Shown: in pieces, positions 26,729 to 33,160 of the stretch
How positions within the stretch are numbered: position 1 is the stretch's first letter
Layout: every line of letters starts with the position of its first letter
NCBI RefSeq assembly: GCF_009911265.1
Contig: NZ_QXXA01000004.1
Coordinates: 62,001 to 126,000, forward strand
Length of the DNA stretch: 64,000 nt
Direction of reading: 5' to 3'
From: Senegalia massiliensis
GTDB lineage: Bacteria; Bacillota; Clostridia; Tissierellales; SIT17
The notes under the pieces: model-generated
What the model was told of the DNA's origin: nothing
The model's input: the letters and a program-made list of their open reading frames with translations, nothing else
Database searches by the model: none
Position numbers and translations under genes: made by a program

Positions 26729-26815
26729 GCCGAAGTGGTGGAACTGGCAGACGCGCCGGATTCAAAATCCGGTGGTAGCAATACCGTGTGGGTTCGAGTC
26801 CCACCTTCGGCACCA
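26729..26815 (+). tRNA. tRNA-Leu (anticodon CAA), prophage integration target
   Basis: 87-nt leucine tRNA with encoded CCA. The anticodon stem CCGGA/TCCGG encloses TTCAAAA, giving CAA. The acceptor stem GCCGAAG/CTTCGGC is fully paired. Gene content changes from host to phage exactly at its 3' end, the standard position for a tyrosine-recombinase att core, so it is presumably attL with the tRNA kept intact. Confidence 0.95.
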
Positions 26816-26818
26816 TAG

Positions 26819-26863
26819 AAAAAGCTATTCCCTAGAATTACATGTTCTAGTGAGTAGCTTTTT
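26819..26863 (+). terminator. Terminator downstream of tRNA-Leu(CAA)
   Basis: Hairpin with outer stem AAAAAGCTA/TAGCTTTTT and inner stem CTAGAA/TTCTAG separated by a 4x4 internal loop, followed by TTTTTTG. It starts 4 nt after the tRNA CCA end. It could come from the host or from the phage side of the junction. Confidence 0.75.
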
Positions 26864-26955: not shown

Positions 26956-27852
26956 CTATTCGATTCTTTTATATAGAAGTTTATGTTCGTTTTTTTCTAA
27001 ATTTTTCAAAAAGGCATCAGCCGGTAAATCAAATATTTCACCTAATGTATCATCATGTAACTTTCCCTCTATTTTAAATAAGATTAATATTAAATCGTTT
27101 AATATGTGTAAAGTAGTATTATTAAAAAAATCTATTAATTCATCACGTTTAGCTTCTAAATTATCTTGATCCTTATTAATTATTCTATTTATATCTGATA
27201 CCACTTTACATGTAGTTTTGTAATTTTTTGTAAAATCACTGTATAAATCATATAGTTTTAAGTAAAAGTCACTATAACTTATTAAAATAGGTTTTCTAGA
27301 CTCGTGTATATTTATTAATATATCTAATTTTTCAAATAATACGTCATAATATTTTTCTATATTGTTTAATTTCTTAATTAAATTTTCATTAAATATTTCA
27401 CCCTTTCTATCATGTATAAGTTTTTCAAGTTTTTCATTTTCTGCTATATCTAAGTCTTTTAATAATTTTATTAATATTTCTTCTTTATTTTTCAAATTTA
27501 ATTTATTTATGAAACAAAAATTTTGATAATAGTTTTGTATATCTTTCTTTAATAGTGTAGTTTCTTTAAATATTAAATCCATTGTTTCAATTTCTAAATG
27601 TTTCTTTATTTTATTCTTTTCACTTTCTTTTATAATTTTCATTTCTTCTTTGTGATTCGCTTTTATTAATTCCAATTGTTCTTTATGATGCTTCTCTTTA
27701 GCCTTTAATTCGATTTTAGATGCATCGCTAGATTTATTCCATCCCATAAATGCTATACCTATTGTTAACATAGGTGTTATTATTAAGTAAATTATATTTA
27801 AAGTATCAATTATATTATCTGCATTATTAAAAATGATTTCTAAAGAATCCAT
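26956..27852 (-). CDS. Hypothetical membrane-anchored coiled-coil protein
   Basis: 298 aa, not recognised. One hydrophobic segment near the N-terminus (about residues 20-38, YLIITPMLTIGIAFMGW) is followed by a long charged helix (about 45-100, rich in Lys/Glu), then a helical domain to the end. It has its own AAAGGGGG ribosome-binding site and lies alone between the attachment site and the replication-relaxation gene. Position at the lysogenic end of a prophage suggests an accessory gene expressed in the lysogen, possibly for host modification or exclusion, but nothing in the sequence proves this. Confidence 0.6.
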   Translation of the reverse strand: MDSLEIIFNNADNIIDTLNIIYLIITPMLTIGIAFMGWNKSSDASKIELKAKEKHHKEQLELIKANHKEEMKIIKESEKNKIKKHLEIETMDLIFKETTLLKKDIQNYYQNFCFINKLNLKNKEEILIKLLKDLDIAENEKLEKLIHDRKGEIFNENLIKKLNNIEKYYDVLFEKLDILINIHESRKPILISYSDFYLKLYDLYSDFTKNYKTTCKVVSDINRIINKDQDNLEAKRDELIDFFNNTTLHILNDLILILFKIEGKLHDDTLGEIFDLPADAFLKNLEKNEHKLLYKRIE

Positions 27853-27983
27853 TACTATACCCCCTTTTATATAATATTTCTCTTTAATATTTCAAAATCC
27901 TTCATTTTTTTAAAGTCAAAGATTATTTCTCTGAATTCATATCTTTCGCTATATTTATACATACGTTTAACTACATTACAACG

Positions 27984-28538
27984 TTATTTGTCGAATAATG
28001 TCAATATATTTTCAGAATCTTCTTTTATTTTTATAACTTCAAATTCTTTTATATTCTTTATACTTTTATTTGTTATAAATATCAGCTTTGGAAACACAGG
28101 GAAATACTTTTTATATTTTTCAGTTAAACATAGTTTTCTGTATTTATGTATATCTACAGGTGTGTTAGATATTTGCACTTCAATAAAAGCTATATATTTT
28201 TTATTTTTATACTTATAGATCATTAAACCATCTGGCCTTATATCTTCTATTTCAAATTCTTTTTTAAATACTTCTATATCTATTAGTTTATTTACTTCTT
28301 TATAAAATTCTACTAATAATAAATTATGCCTTATCTGTTTAGGTTTCTTAATGTAGTAGTAGTATTGATTAGTAAAATGCTCTCTATCTCTTTTAAGTAC
28401 CTTATCTGCATATAATCTTTTTAATCTATTCTGTGCTACTCTTAAAGAAGGATAAAATAAATCTGCTATTATATTTGTTGTAGCTACATTAAATTTCTCT
28501 ATAAACTCTATTACTTTTTTATCTCTATCAGTTATCAT
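27984..28538 (-). CDS. Replication-relaxation family protein
   Basis: ~184 aa with an N-terminal winged-helix (ITDRDKKVIEFIEKFNVATTNIIADLFY, in which the segment VATTNIIADLFYPS is typical) followed by a nuclease-like or relaxase-like region with YIAFIEVQISNTP. This fits the replication-relaxation (Rep_relax) family found in plasmids and phages of Firmicutes. I chose the inner ATG because AGGTGA precedes it by 5-6 nt; the gene overlaps the end of the FtsK-like gene and is translationally coupled to it. Confidence 0.7.
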   Translation of the reverse strand: MITDRDKKVIEFIEKFNVATTNIIADLFYPSLRVAQNRLKRLYADKVLKRDREHFTNQYYYYIKKPKQIRHNLLLVEFYKEVNKLIDIEVFKKEFEIEDIRPDGLMIYKYKNKKYIAFIEVQISNTPVDIHKYRKLCLTEKYKKYFPVFPKLIFITNKSIKNIKEFEVIKIKEDSENILTLFDK

Positions 28539-29742
28539 ATAAATCACCTAGATTAAAATCATTAGGTAATTCTCCATTACTTTTTTCTTCTAGTTTTTCT
28601 ACTTTCTTTTTTATGTATGTATGTTTAATTAAATCTCTAGCTTTTGATACGGATAAATTCATTGATTGAAATTCTATATCTTTATATATTCCATGACCTC
28701 TACCTTTTAATTTTTCTAATCCTGATCTATCTATTATTATACGACTATTAATTTCATTCATAGTCTTAAGTCCTATCACGCATGGTACATTTGCTTTTAT
28801 TCTACCATTTAGTACTTTAGCATCAGGCCTTTGAGTTGCAATAATAAGATGAATTCCTGACGCTCTACTTTTTGAAGCTAATGATTCTAAAATCTTTATA
28901 CTATCCTTTTCATTCTGCAAGTCTGCAAATTCATCTATAATTAATACTTTGTATTTCATTTTAGATTTAGATATTTTATTATATTCTTCTATATCTACAC
29001 AATCATTTTCAAAAAACTTGTCATATCTTTCATCAACCTCTATAAGTAATTTATTTAATATTTTTTCAGATTCTTCTATAGTTCTACTAAAAGATTTTAC
29101 ATATTTGCTTTTCCTAAAAACATTAAATTCAGCACCGTTTTTTAAATCGATTAGATGTAATTCCGTATTTTTATTAAGTATAAGGTTTGTTATTATCCCT
29201 CTAAGTAATGTAGATTTCCCTGAACCAGTTTCTCCTGCTATTAAAATGTGAGGAGCTTTTTTGATATTGATTTTTTCTAAACCGGACATACTGTGTCCTA
29301 TTGCTATTTCTAAATTATTATTTTTATAAAATTGATAAGGATGTAATTCTAAATCCTTCTCATATACATCAATATAGATACATTTATTTATATATTTTAT
29401 GTTTACTTTGTTATTTAAAAATTCTTCTATAGATAATTGTTTTCTTTTGAAATCATCACTATTTATCCCATGTGGTAAATCAAAAATTAATCTATATCCA
29501 AAATTAGTATTTTGCTTTTCTTTTAGCTTAGGCAATCTTTCATCTTTATTAATTATTCCTATATTTTTCATTAGTTTATCAAATTTAGAATTGTGTTTTT
29601 CTAAAAAATGATACAAACAAGACAATCCACCTAAGCCACAAAATCCAATTCCACCAGTTGTTGCTCCGAACGTAATCATTAATATTCCACCGACAACCGA
29701 GCTTAGTCCTACTTCAAATAAACTACTATCTTTGTTACCCAT
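28528..29742 (-). CDS. FtsK/SpoIIIE-domain DNA translocase-like ATPase
   Basis: 404 aa. Two short N-terminal hydrophobic stretches (about residues 12-45) precede a RecA-like motor with Walker A GETGSGKS (residues 170-177), Walker B VLIIDEFADL (DE at 270-271) and ATQRPD (about 302-307), the usual FtsK-HerA pattern. It lacks a recognisable FtsK gamma domain. Similar proteins act as plasmid or ICE coupling/transfer ATPases (TcpA, ConQ). The partner gene downstream is a replication-relaxation protein, so the pair may be a plasmid-type replication or transfer module carried by the prophage. Confidence 0.8.
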   Translation of the reverse strand: MGNKDSSLFEVGLSSVVGGILMITFGATTGGIGFCGLGGLSCLYHFLEKHNSKFDKLMKNIGIINKDERLPKLKEKQNTNFGYRLIFDLPHGINSDDFKRKQLSIEEFLNNKVNIKYINKCIYIDVYEKDLELHPYQFYKNNNLEIAIGHSMSGLEKINIKKAPHILIAGETGSGKSTLLRGIITNLILNKNTELHLIDLKNGAEFNVFRKSKYVKSFSRTIEESEKILNKLLIEVDERYDKFFENDCVDIEEYNKISKSKMKYKVLIIDEFADLQNEKDSIKILESLASKSRASGIHLIIATQRPDAKVLNGRIKANVPCVIGLKTMNEINSRIIIDRSGLEKLKGRGHGIYKDIEFQSMNLSVSKARDLIKHTYIKKKVEKLEEKSNGELPNDFNLGDLYDN

Positions 29743-29806
29743 TTACATATACCTCCTATACGATTGATTTGTACAAGTTCTATATAAGTAATATAGCTAT
29801 ATTTAC

Positions 29807-29847
29807 ATACGTTTCGTACGAATACCTTAACGAATACCTTAACGTAT
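29807..29847. repeat. Tandem 12-bp repeat inside an inverted repeat, upstream of the FtsK-like gene
   Basis: CGAATACCTTAA occurs twice back to back (29819-29842). ATACGTT (29807-29813) and AACGTAT (29841-29847) flank them as an inverted repeat, and TTCGTACGAA (29813-29822) is a 10-bp palindrome. The sequence TACATACGTTT recurs near 27958-27968, after the replication-relaxation gene. A regulator operator or a replication/transfer site is plausible. Confidence 0.55.
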
Positions 29848-29910
29848 AGTTTATTATATGCCTAAATGGTTTATTTATTGCCTGTCCTATAAAAATAAAT
29901 AAAAAAATAA

Positions 29911-29930
29911 TACCTGGTTTATTCCAGGTA
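29911..29930 (-). terminator. Terminator after the XRE regulator gene
   Basis: Stem TACCTGG/CCAGGTA with a 6-nt loop, followed on the minus strand by ATTATTTTTTTATTT. It covers the stop codon of the XRE gene. Confidence 0.8.
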
Positions 29931-30119
29931 CATAAAATCTTTTACATCTATATTTAATTTATCTGAAATTTTCAAAGCTATTTCTAATGAAGGTTGCCTT
30001 TCATTTCTCTCATATCTGTTATATTGATATTGACTTAGTTCTAAAAACTCTGCAAAATCTTTTTGAAACTTGTATCCTTTCTGAAGCCTTATTTCCCCTA
30101 ATCTATTTTTTACCCCCAT
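29919..30119 (-). CDS. XRE-family helix-turn-helix regulator
   Basis: 66-aa DNA-binding protein consisting only of an HTH_3 domain (LGEIRLQKGYKFQKDFAEFL and SQYQYNRYERNERQPSLEIA), with no C-terminal effector domain. I chose the ATG that follows GGAGGGG by 4-5 nt; the longer frame upstream lacks a ribosome-binding site. It is a single gene ended by its own terminator, between the ART-like gene and the FtsK module, and could regulate either. Confidence 0.8.
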   Translation of the reverse strand: MGVKNRLGEIRLQKGYKFQKDFAEFLELSQYQYNRYERNERQPSLEIALKISDKLNIDVKDFMYLE

Positions 30120-30236
30120 ATTACCCCTCCACTTTTGTATCGTTATAAAAATTCCGTTATAATCTCTTTTGTATGTAATACATAATTTTTCTAATTTCAA
30201 ACTCTCTTAACTTAACACTTACTATCTATAAAACTA

Positions 30237-31070
30237 CTAAACAATTTCTCTGATCCCAATAATATTTTTCCAAGGTACTATGTATGAAGGTTTCATATAT
30301 GCAAAATCTTCTATTCTTTGATTGTATGAGATGTAATTCTGTAGTCTATACAAAGATTTAGATAATAACCATCTTCTATGTTCAATCATTTTAGAGACGT
30401 CCTCATTATAATCCTCCTTTGTATTATAAAATGTAAACCACTCAAAATTCTCAAATTTTTCTTCAAACTCTAAAACATAAGCTTTAGCCCTTTTTGCCCA
30501 CTCGTTTTCTAAATTTAACTTACATATACTCGATACATTAAGCAAGAACTCAGGACGTAAATGAACATTCCCACCATATTCCTTATCACCTTCCATTGTT
30601 AGGAAAGCTGATAATTGATTATCGTAGTATAGCTTATGTCCAATAGAATTTAACCTGCCTTCTAAAGACCTTCTATCTAAAAAGCTTTTATTTGAATTTG
30701 TATTGTAACTAACATCATATGATTTATTTCCTACTTTCATAATTCTTTTATCTATATCAAATTCAATTCCATGATTCTGTAAAAAAATGTTTAGTGGTGT
30801 TGGATAAGAAAGAACTGAAGTTAAATCCATTATTCCATATTTCTTAATGGTTTCTAATCCATCTAAGCAAGTTGTAACATGGGAAGCGACATATGTTATA
30901 TTGTCAATCTCTAAATCGTCCAAAGATATATTATATCGTTCACAAAAATCATCTATATCAATATCTTCACTATTATCAATAATGTAGCTTATTATACTTA
31001 TTTCATCAACACCTACCCAATCGTGTAGAAATTTTTTAGTTCCTTCTACATTTCTTAAATCAAATCTCAT
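30237..31070 (-). CDS. Hypothetical accessory protein with ADP-ribosyltransferase-like motif
   Basis: 277 aa, no family identified with confidence. The segment ASHVTTCLDGLETIKKYGI (about residues 62-80) resembles the first strand and helix of ADP-ribosyltransferase-fold proteins (H-x-T followed by a helix ending in GI, as in DarT/DUF4433-type and related ART proteins). A second notable segment is EYGGNVHLRPEFLL (about 164-177). The N-terminal 60 residues are acidic and helical. The start follows GAGAGGTG by 4 nt. It is transcribed alone, beside an inverted repeat, in the lysogenic-conversion region. An antiphage or toxin role is inference. Confidence 0.55.
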   Translation of the reverse strand: MRFDLRNVEGTKKFLHDWVGVDEISIISYIIDNSEDIDIDDFCERYNISLDDLEIDNITYVASHVTTCLDGLETIKKYGIMDLTSVLSYPTPLNIFLQNHGIEFDIDKRIMKVGNKSYDVSYNTNSNKSFLDRRSLEGRLNSIGHKLYYDNQLSAFLTMEGDKEYGGNVHLRPEFLLNVSSICKLNLENEWAKRAKAYVLEFEEKFENFEWFTFYNTKEDYNEDVSKMIEHRRWLLSKSLYRLQNYISYNQRIEDFAYMKPSYIVPWKNIIGIREIV

Positions 31071-31098
31071 AATACACCTCTCTCTTGAAATTTTTAGA

Positions 31099-31117
31099 TT
31101 TATTGTAGGACAATAAA
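31099..31117. promoter_or_regulatory. 19-bp inverted repeat upstream of the ART-like gene
   Basis: TTTATTGT-AGG-ACAATAAA, perfect 8-bp arms with a 3-bp spacer, 29 nt before the start codon. It overlaps TACAAT, a possible -10 element on the minus strand. It is a likely operator; the neighbouring XRE protein is a candidate ligand. Confidence 0.5.
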
Positions 31118-31252
31118 CTAGTCCCACTTTTCATTGCTACTTTTTTGATTTCATTATTTTTCTATAATGTTATATATTAATTTCTATTTCTTCCTTAATT
31201 TTTCCTCTTTATTTTCAAATTAATTTTATAATTTTATTTTTTTCATAAAAAA

Positions 31253-31280
31253 TAAGGCTAGAGATTTCTCCCTAGCCTTA
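31253..31280 (-). terminator. Terminator after the 55-aa small gene
   Basis: Stem TAAGGCTAG/CTAGCCTTA with a 10-nt loop, followed on the minus strand by TTTTTTATG. It lies about 20 nt past the stop codon of the small gene to its right. Confidence 0.8.
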
Positions 31281-31302: not shown

Positions 31303-31470
31303 TTATGTATTATGTATTTTGTCTTTTTCAATAAACCTTAAAAAACCTTTCTTTCTCTTTGTAATTTCTATATAAGTTTCTTTATCTATCTTGTTTTCTT
31401 CTAATAATTTATCTGCCAGTTTAATAAACATTTTTGTTATTTCTTCAAGGTCATTTTTATTATATCTCAC
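31303..31470 (-). CDS. Small hypothetical protein, 55 aa
   Basis: GTG-start frame with AAGGGGG 8 nt upstream. The product is highly charged and helical (DLEEITKMFIKLADKLLEENK, where KLADKLLEENK is typical of its composition) and ends IEKDKIHNT. It is transcribed divergently from the Spo0E-like gene and followed by a good terminator, which supports a real gene. No family is recognised. Confidence 0.6.
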   Translation of the reverse strand: MRYNKNDLEEITKMFIKLADKLLEENKIDKETYIEITKRKKGFLRFIEKDKIHNT

Positions 31471-31594
31471 ATTCAATTCCCCCTTTTTTATATATATTCT
31501 ACATAAAATCGTTAATTCCTCTACATAAAAATAAAAATCTCGGAATATTAATTCATTTTGTCAAATATGATAATTTTATACATTATATTTCTTA

Positions 31595-31623
31595 TTGTTA
31601 ACTAAGTAATTTTATAATATAAT
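31595..31623 (+). promoter_or_regulatory. Strong promoter of the Spo0E-like gene
   Basis: TTGTTA (31595-31600), 17-nt spacer, perfect TATAAT (31618-31623), vegetative sigma-A type. The transcript would start about 40 nt before the ATG. It is the only rightward promoter of this quality in the left part of the prophage. Confidence 0.75.
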
Positions 31624-31668: not shown

Positions 31669-31836
31669 ATGGGGAAAGTAGAAGATGTTGAAGAGAAAAT
31701 GACATCATTAAAAAAACAAATGCACAAACTACTACATAAGAATGATTTTATAATTACAACAGAAATAATAGATATAAGTCAAGAACTAGATGAAGTTATA
31801 TATCTATATCATAAAATAAAAAATAAAATCAATTGA
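31669..31836 (+). CDS. Spo0E-like aspartyl-phosphate phosphatase (prophage-borne)
   Basis: 55 aa, two predicted helices. The second carries ISQELDEVIYLYH, matching the Spo0E family signature SxxLDxxIxxY, and the first, KMTSLKKQMHKLLH, matches the usual I..LR..M..L pattern. Spo0E proteins dephosphorylate Spo0A~P and so delay or block sporulation. It is the only rightward gene in the left half of the prophage and has its own strong promoter, so it is likely expressed in the lysogen. Its role in this host is inference from the family. Confidence 0.75.
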   Translation: MGKVEDVEEKMTSLKKQMHKLLHKNDFIITTEIIDISQELDEVIYLYHKIKNKIN

Positions 31837-31846
31837 CATAAAAAAA

Positions 31847-31869
31847 GACCAGGACAAATAGTCCTGGTC
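31847..31869. terminator. Terminator between the Spo0E-like gene and the amidase gene
   Basis: Stem GACCAGGAC/GTCCTGGTC with loop AAATA. On the minus strand it is followed by a run of seven T and ends the late (lysis) transcript; on the plus strand the T run is weaker but it may also end the convergent Spo0E-like transcript. Confidence 0.88.
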
Positions 31870-31882
31870 AATTTAATTTACT

Positions 31883-32791
31883 TTATTTCTTTATTATTTC
31901 TATCTTATCTGCCTTATTAAGATTTTGCTTAACTTGATTGATGATATTTTTTTCTTCTGCAAATGATCCAACTTTTTTACCATTTATATATACTCTATTT
32001 ATATCTTTTTTAGGTTCAGGTTTTTGAAATATATCTTTAAGTTTATTAGCTGCTTCTACTCCTACAGAACCATCAATCTTTAACTTATACTTTTTTTGAA
32101 ATTGCCTAACTGCTTTGATGGTATCACTGCCATAAACACCATCTACTCCATATCTTCCAACATTAAAACCTAATTCTTTTAAATATTTTTGAATTATTTT
32201 CACACTACCTGCTCTATCTCCTTTATTAAAATAACCTCTTTTAGGTAAAGTAATTTGACCTATAGTTATTTGTTCACTTTTATATCCTAATCTTTTGTTT
32301 ACTTCTCTAGCTATATAAGGAAATTTACTTTGTAAATATGGTCCAGGACAATTTGTGTTTTGAAACATATTATGTCTAGTTAAATTTCCTCTTGAATCTC
32401 CAGTATAAACTAATTTTTTAATTCCATTTCTTTTACATATATCTACACATAAATTAATAGTACCTTCTAGAGCTTTGTCTGATACTGACCAATTGCCACC
32501 TATTCTATCATTAGCTACTTCAATGGTAATTGCTTGATGATCATTTGAAGGACTTCCAGAAGTCCACGCTCTATTTTTCTCTTCTACATACATACCTATT
32601 CTACCGTTCTTGTCTACTCCATAATTAGAACTTGCTTTACGTGATTTTCTTGCGAATATAGCACCTAGAGTTTGTAAAGATAAGATTCCTGCTTCATGAT
32701 GTATAGTTATCTTTTTAATTTTTTTCTTTCTAGGATTTGAACTATTTGGTGATATTTTTGTATATTCAACTAAAGGACTATTGCTCATCAT
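31883..32791 (-). CDS. N-acetylmuramoyl-L-alanine amidase (endolysin) with peptidoglycan-binding domain
   Basis: ~302-aa phage lysin. N-terminal amidase_2 domain: zinc ligands in KKITIHHEAG, in TRHNMFQNTNCPG, and the surrounding YGVDKNGRIGMYVEE. A C-terminal PG_binding_1 domain (about residues 205-265; GDRAGSVKIIQKYLKELGF and YGSDTIKAVRQFQKKYKL) targets the wall. It cuts the MurNAc-L-Ala bond for host lysis once the holin opens the membrane. I chose the ATG after AAAGGGTGA; it overlaps the preceding small gene. Confidence 0.93.
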   Translation of the reverse strand: MMSNSPLVEYTKISPNSSNPRKKKIKKITIHHEAGILSLQTLGAIFARKSRKASSNYGVDKNGRIGMYVEEKNRAWTSGSPSNDHQAITIEVANDRIGGNWSVSDKALEGTINLCVDICKRNGIKKLVYTGDSRGNLTRHNMFQNTNCPGPYLQSKFPYIAREVNKRLGYKSEQITIGQITLPKRGYFNKGDRAGSVKIIQKYLKELGFNVGRYGVDGVYGSDTIKAVRQFQKKYKLKIDGSVGVEAANKLKDIFQKPEPKKDINRVYINGKKVGSFAEEKNIINQVKQNLNKADKIEIIKK

Positions 32792-32903
32792 ATTCACCCT
32801 TTCCATCATTAAGTTCTTCTAACATTTCATCTGATATATCTTCATCTGAATCTAGTATTATTCCTAATTCTTTTTCTAGCTCTTTTCTTTTTTCTTTATT
32901 CAT
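32778..32903 (-). CDS. Small acidic protein of the lysis cassette, 41 aa
   Basis: MNKEKRKELEKELG start with GGAGG 9-10 nt upstream; the protein is almost entirely charged (SDEDISDEMLEELNDG). Its start overlaps the holin stop as TAATG and its end overlaps the amidase start by 14 nt, so it is embedded in the translationally coupled lysis cassette. Function unknown; possibly a lysis-timing or assembly factor. Confidence 0.65.
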   Translation of the reverse strand: MNKEKRKELEKELGIILDSDEDISDEMLEELNDGKGEYDEQ

Positions 32904-33160
32904 TATTTTCTGCCTCCTTTAGTTTGCTTTATAACTTGATTTGTAAATACAGCTGCAGCAGCAACTAAAATTGCTTGTACTATATTATCAGGAGAATATG
33001 CTCCTAATACTGCAGGTGTTATACCTATAGATAATAATGTAATAGCTATAGGTATATATTTGTCATTTAATAGATTAGTGTTTTTCAACACATAACCTAA
33101 AAAATATAAAACTGGTACCATAATTAATGCTTCTTCAATTACAAATTCTAAAAAATCCAT
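32903..33160 (-). CDS. Phage holin (Phage_holin_5-like)
   Basis: 85 aa with three hydrophobic segments (about residues 8-27, 35-53, 58-76), a short periplasmic start (MDFLEFVIEEALIMVPVLYF) and a basic C-terminal tail (NQVIKQTKGGRK). Composition and sequence fit Gram-positive holins of the 5_2 type. It lies between the XhlA-like gene and the amidase. Its ribosome-binding site AGGAGG overlaps the stop of a short preceding frame. Confidence 0.85.
   Translation of the reverse strand: MDFLEFVIEEALIMVPVLYFLGYVLKNTNLLNDKYIPIAITLLSIGITPAVLGAYSPDNIVQAILVAAAAVFTNQVIKQTKGGRK

Follow-up and report, generated by a model that had tools for sequence, protein, structure and literature searches.

A Spo0E family gene paired with a divergent small gene in a prophage of Senegalia massiliensis

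Prophage setting and gene arrangement

The window analyzed here, a 64,000-nt stretch of contig C4 of the Senegalia massiliensis genome (G000, the source genome), contains most of a ∼39 kb prophage that is delimited by a 29-bp exact direct repeat (att) at a tRNA-Leu gene (Table 1). The att copies enclose genes for head, tail, lysis, and replication functions, and host genes (e.g., polA and coaE) are found left of 26795. A preliminary description of this DNA, made from the letters alone, had placed the locus in a prophage, and this location is borne out by the att repeats at 26795 and 65836, the overlap of the former with the tRNA-Leu, and the integrase at the right copy.

Within the att sites, a short Spo0E-like gene forms a separate transcription unit, with its own conserved promoter and a terminator, in an accessory slot flanked by lysis genes on one side and the left att on the other. 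In the left half of the prophage, it had been described as the sole gene with rightward orientation, which is true among evidence-backed genes; the remaining rightward ORFs are unsupported antisense frames. A partner gene is transcribed divergently from it, and the two are separated by 192 bp.

The left arm of the prophage (26956-31127) encodes an FtsK-like ATPase, a Replic_Relax protein, an XRE regulator, and a 296-aa protein (30237-31127) without a known family, and resembles a plasmid- or ICE-like module reaching from the lysis genes to the att. The corresponding slot in a prophage of the sister species (G003), and at the start of contig C1 of the source genome, instead holds HipA-like and DUF3037-like genes, which constitute a PADLOC candidate defence pair (PDC-M66).

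Table 1. Features of the cassette and its prophage, in window coordinates.
Feature	Position	Strand	Basis or remark
tRNA-Leu(CAA)	26729-26815		3' end overlapped by left att copy
Left att copy (prophage left end)	26795-26823	+	29-bp exact repeat, overlaps tRNA 3' end
Partner-gene terminator (recurrent hairpin)	31253-31280	-	Terminator scan; recurs in G000 and G003
Partner gene (57 aa, predicted helical hairpin, weakly SHOCT-like)	31303-31476	-	Divergent pairing at most loci in the genus
Spo0A-box-like site TTTGTCAAA	31557-31565	+	Matches consensus TTTGTCRAA
-35 element TTGTTA of Spo0E-like gene	31595-31600	+	With the -10, best-conserved 17-spaced hexamer pair
-10 element TATAAT of Spo0E-like gene	31618-31623	+	Invariant across 8 divergent cassettes
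Spo0E-like gene (55 aa + stop)	31669-31836	+	SxxxD signature S37-D41; PF09388 match above cut-off
Bidirectional terminator, Spo0E-like gene/endolysin	31847-31869	.	Terminator scan, 9-bp stem
Endolysin (late-operon end)	31883-32809	-	phrog_7698, E 2.9e-54; convergent with Spo0E-like gene
Holin	32903-33160	-	phrog_1129
Right att copy	65836-65864 (locus L009, beyond window)		29-bp exact repeat; integrase beside it

The two proteins and their shared intergenic region

Members of the Spo0E family, which includes the Bacillus proteins Spo0E, YnzD, and YisI, are Spo0A~P phosphatases, and those that have been studied restrain sporulation. The 55-codon rightward frame in which the family signature had been noticed is present as described and includes ISQELDEVIYLYH. 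The assignment to the family, which a profile search was to decide, was upheld (PF09388, 29.0 bits against a curated cut-off of 23, E 1.1e-6), and at the level of sequence the product is confirmed as a Spo0E family member. Only two residues, S37 and D41, are invariant across 23 relatives, and both belong to the SxxxD signature. A profile built from these relatives matches two solved Spo0E-like phosphatases in the PDB, the Bacillus anthracis proteins 2bzb (E 2.2e-5) and 2c0s (E 5.6e-5); neither structure was retrieved with the single Spo0E-like sequence as query. The two helices that had been proposed are also seen in the AF2 model, which predicts an antiparallel hairpin (helices 2-24 and 31-54, mean pLDDT 80). 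Foldseek ranks 2c0s first for this model (TM 0.79), but at an E of 1.0, which is not significant; the fold by itself is thus no proof of Spo0E identity, and a two-helix hairpin is too simple for a fold search to be decisive.

The gene shares with the Spo0E family its short two-helix product, the SxxxD signature, the PF09388 score above cut-off, and the profile match to both structures, and differs, as known from sequence, in being borne by a prophage, in its divergent 57-aa partner, and in having many near-identical copies in one genome. The variable sites of the prophage-type clade comprise 11 synonymous and 5 non-synonymous changes, against an expectation of ∼82% non-synonymous (p = 1.3e-5), and the coding sequence is therefore under purifying selection. 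Together with the near-identical copies elsewhere, this synonymous excess makes the ORF more than a chance reading frame.

The partner is likewise predicted to be a hairpin (AF2, pLDDT 88), and belongs to no known family, the SHOCT profile being matched weakly by 3 of 16 relatives. That it might be a diverged Spo0E protein was considered and rejected, as a profile comparison gave no alignment, and a fold search with the partner returned no meaningful match. In a set of 249 genomes of the order, this genus alone has strong partner matches, and none of the five weak matches outside it has a recognized Spo0E-like neighbor. A narrow search of open-licence papers found none naming Spo0E together with SHOCT.

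The promoter TTGTTA-17-TATAAT that had been assigned to the Spo0E-like gene is present at 31595-31623. A bare promoter scan is uninformative alone (8 sites, against 6.9 in shuffles); across the intergenic regions of eight divergent cassettes, this is the top-conserved 17-spaced pair, which supports a conserved promoter of putative sigma-A type belonging to the gene itself.

Between the two genes lies a Spo0A-box-like site, a match as good as which occurs in 1 of 300 shuffles of the intergenic region, with 1.8 matches expected in 64 kb. Conservation of a Spo0A box was considered but not accepted, since no more than 4 of 16 cassettes, including a degenerate one, have the exact match. The site is notable locally but not conserved; it is suggestive only, and any feedback through it would be hypothetical.

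Hairpins resembling the bidirectional terminator are also found downstream of the copies of the Spo0E-like gene on contigs C19 and C33 of the source genome. Near-identical versions of the hairpin that ends the partner gene (GGCTAGAG..CTAGCC) occur on its contigs C1, C4, C16, C19, C28, C31, C34, and C35, and on C1 and C2 of G003, several times adjoining small genes; the hairpin is absent from G001 and G002, and a reversed control pattern gave zero matches.

Copies of the cassette across prophages and genomes

Where either gene is found in the genus, the other mostly adjoins it divergently, the exceptions being contig ends, a degenerate copy (G000 C7:93k), and single hits. This two-gene cassette was seen in this genus alone, in many copies. 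The source genome and G003 each have 12 PF09388 matches, the highest count among the 249 genomes of the order (the next being 8).

Within the source genome, the Spo0E-like gene also adjoins lysis genes on C19 (a 36.6-kb prophage contig) and on C33 (a small phage contig), and adjoins an endolysin remnant on C34. Contigs C1, C19, and C33 end inside the cassette, so that the gene context there is partial, owing to assembly breaks in the cassette repeat. The C19 prophage and the window prophage have the cassette in common and little else. The same tRNA-Leu site is occupied in G003 by a prophage that spans C1:1346049 to about 1383120 and has only four internal DNA segments longer than 300 bp in common with the window prophage. 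One is the 710-bp cassette (96%), and the others are the integrase end, one segment of 357 bp near the holin, and one of 448 bp. A further G003 copy, on C4, lies near a tape-measure remnant, and in G001 the cassette pair adjoins an integrase.

The copies were labeled as prophage or non-prophage by their neighboring genes, and in a tree those pre-assigned to prophages or remnants fall in one 7-member clade (99/100), a grouping that was named after the labels had been seen. This clade also includes the copies at G003 C4:7179 and G003 C1:1749k. No phage gene was recognized in the region of the latter, which indicates that the cassette is not purely phage cargo.

We consider it somewhat unlikely that the cassette is a selfish or host-derived element that recombines between chromosome and prophages, with the prophage a mere vehicle and the gene not serving the phage. 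Such an element would fit the many copies outside recognized prophages, the older, diverged chromosomal copies in both species (C14 and G003 C1:941k), and the two intergenic subtypes, each of which is present in prophages, and the recurrent terminator hairpins could be its recombination points. It is less readily reconciled with the well-supported single clade of prophage copies, with the purifying selection on the coding sequence, or with the position beside lysis genes that the C4, C19, C33, and G003-prophage copies have in common; nor is a single phage lineage rejected (AU p 0.365). These data neither establish descent within phages nor reject it.

Beyond the genus, a Spo0E-like gene lies between late regulator and terminase genes in G192 (another family of the same order) and in an IMG/VR contig, so the carriage of Spo0E-like genes by prophages is not peculiar to this genus. 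On the IMG/VR viral contig (L069, 5001-5177), the gene is 98% identical to that of G192 and is upstream of the terminase genes. Neither the window's Spo0E-like protein, even at E 0.1, nor the G192 relative, at E 1, had a tblastn match in a phage collection. No relative emerged from scans of genome contigs, or from scans of viral contigs that used the protein, alignment A1, and the G001 relative; these collections may omit records near the source genome. A broader alignment (A3) offered no segment of sufficient conservation to scan with.

A possible influence on host sporulation

We lean toward the view that this is a lysogenic-conversion cassette, whose Spo0E-like protein would lower Spo0A~P and thereby delay sporulation in lysogens. 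As a self-contained divergent unit carried by the prophage in its accessory slot, the cassette would express a helical hairpin of the Spo0E family, driven by a sigma-A type promoter of its own. If it behaves like the Spo0E proteins that have been studied, this hairpin would bind the receiver domain of Spo0A at the phosphorylation site, where the phosphate would be removed or blocked; Spo0A~P would then fall, and lysogens would sporulate later or less often. The divergent 57-aa hairpin probably serves as a modulator or as a second effector.

The preliminary description had arrived at a similar interpretation, of which the Spo0E family membership, the gene's own promoter, and the residence in a prophage of a host with Spo0A and the spore-specific sigma-G (sigG) hold. 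From the studied family we infer the lowering of Spo0A~P or the block of Spo0A activation, and the phosphatase or binding activity, the choice of Spo0A as target, the effect on sporulation, the benefit to the phage, and the role of the partner are likewise putative. The purposes that had been suggested (escape from being locked in spores, or a choice of carrier cells) are speculation. That description had overlooked the divergent partner gene, the numerous copies in the host genome, and the recurrence of the cassette in other prophages. With 11 further PF09388 matches in the host genome, one extra copy may change little.

A broader proposal, which we regard as unlikely, is that the cassette is a genus-specific module, shared by several unrelated prophages and the host, in which a Spo0E-like Spo0A inhibitor is regulated or counteracted by the divergent hairpin, and that its dosage sets the sporulation threshold. 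Were this true, the Spo0A box between the genes, in the subtype carried here, could close a feedback loop.

Spo0E of Clostridioides difficile (CD3271, 53 aa) resembles the protein described here in length and signature, and its host is an anaerobic spore-former; it interacts with Spo0A and holds down sporulation, and D42 of its SxxxD motif sits at the predicted interface (PMC11115286). Neither a prophage location nor a divergent partner is mentioned for CD3271 in the excerpts available of that study. The same source describes Spo0E-Spo0A contacts as species-specific, attributes further partners such as RstA to Spo0E, and places Spo0E homologs in non-sporulating species as well (PMC11115286). 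It is accordingly conceivable, if quite improbable, that the prophage protein acts not on Spo0A but on another response regulator or an RstA-like regulator, and alters, for example, motility or prophage behavior. The binding of RstA by C. difficile Spo0E, with its effects on motility and toxin production (PMC11115286), would agree with such a target, as would the 12 paralogs in one genome, which suggest several targets, whereas the SxxxD signature is intact here and Spo0A is the best-evidenced target in the literature available to us.

Carriage of Spo0E homologs by phages and prophages is already known. Temperate Firmicutes phages with spo0E homologs beside RRNPP quorum-sensing genes have been reported, and a nearly identical idea, the hijacking of sporulation, was published for them, according to the portion of that report available (PMC10075063). 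The window prophage is alike in being temperate and carrying such a homolog, and differs in its divergent 57-aa neighbor and in that no TPR or RRNPP family, and no RRNPP receptor, was recognized among the scanned neighbors, of which the 296-aa protein has no family, short propeptides being outside the scan. Brevibacillus phage SecTim467 also has a Spo0E-like gene, whose product (gp70) is 96% similar to a host protein; as excerpted, gp70 lies in a transposon-like region (PMC4909266), whereas the gene here lies in a divergent cassette by lysis genes. Gut phages similarly carry regulators of sporulation initiation, including a truncated spo0A; Spo0E is not mentioned in the part of that account available, and the route proposed there for spo0A is transcriptional (PMC10294663). 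What appears to be new is the pairing of the two genes in a divergent cassette, together with the many copies of this cassette and its recurrence in several prophages that otherwise differ; no earlier description was found in the open-licence literature, parts of which were available in excerpt.

An influence of phages on sporulation has so far been proposed mainly from gene content. Here, the same small inhibitor-like cassette gene occurs within one genome in two firmly identified prophages (C4 and C19), on a small phage contig (C33), and beside a phage remnant (C34), and in the sister species it is carried by another prophage, integrated at the same att site. If Spo0A is indeed the target of the protein, these lysogens would offer a direct system in which to ask whether lysogeny alters the sporulation decision, and the partner would bring a new small protein into that pathway.

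Other small genes accompany these elements. In the C19 prophage, a small lipoprotein-like gene adjoins the tape-measure gene (L032 joined with L072, 11341-11919), and a similar one is present in the G003 C4 phage remnant (L028, 9085-9750). A fragment encoding the C-terminal part of a sigma factor is found near Spo0E cassettes in both species (G000 C7:92642-92836 and G003 C1:1820405-1820599).
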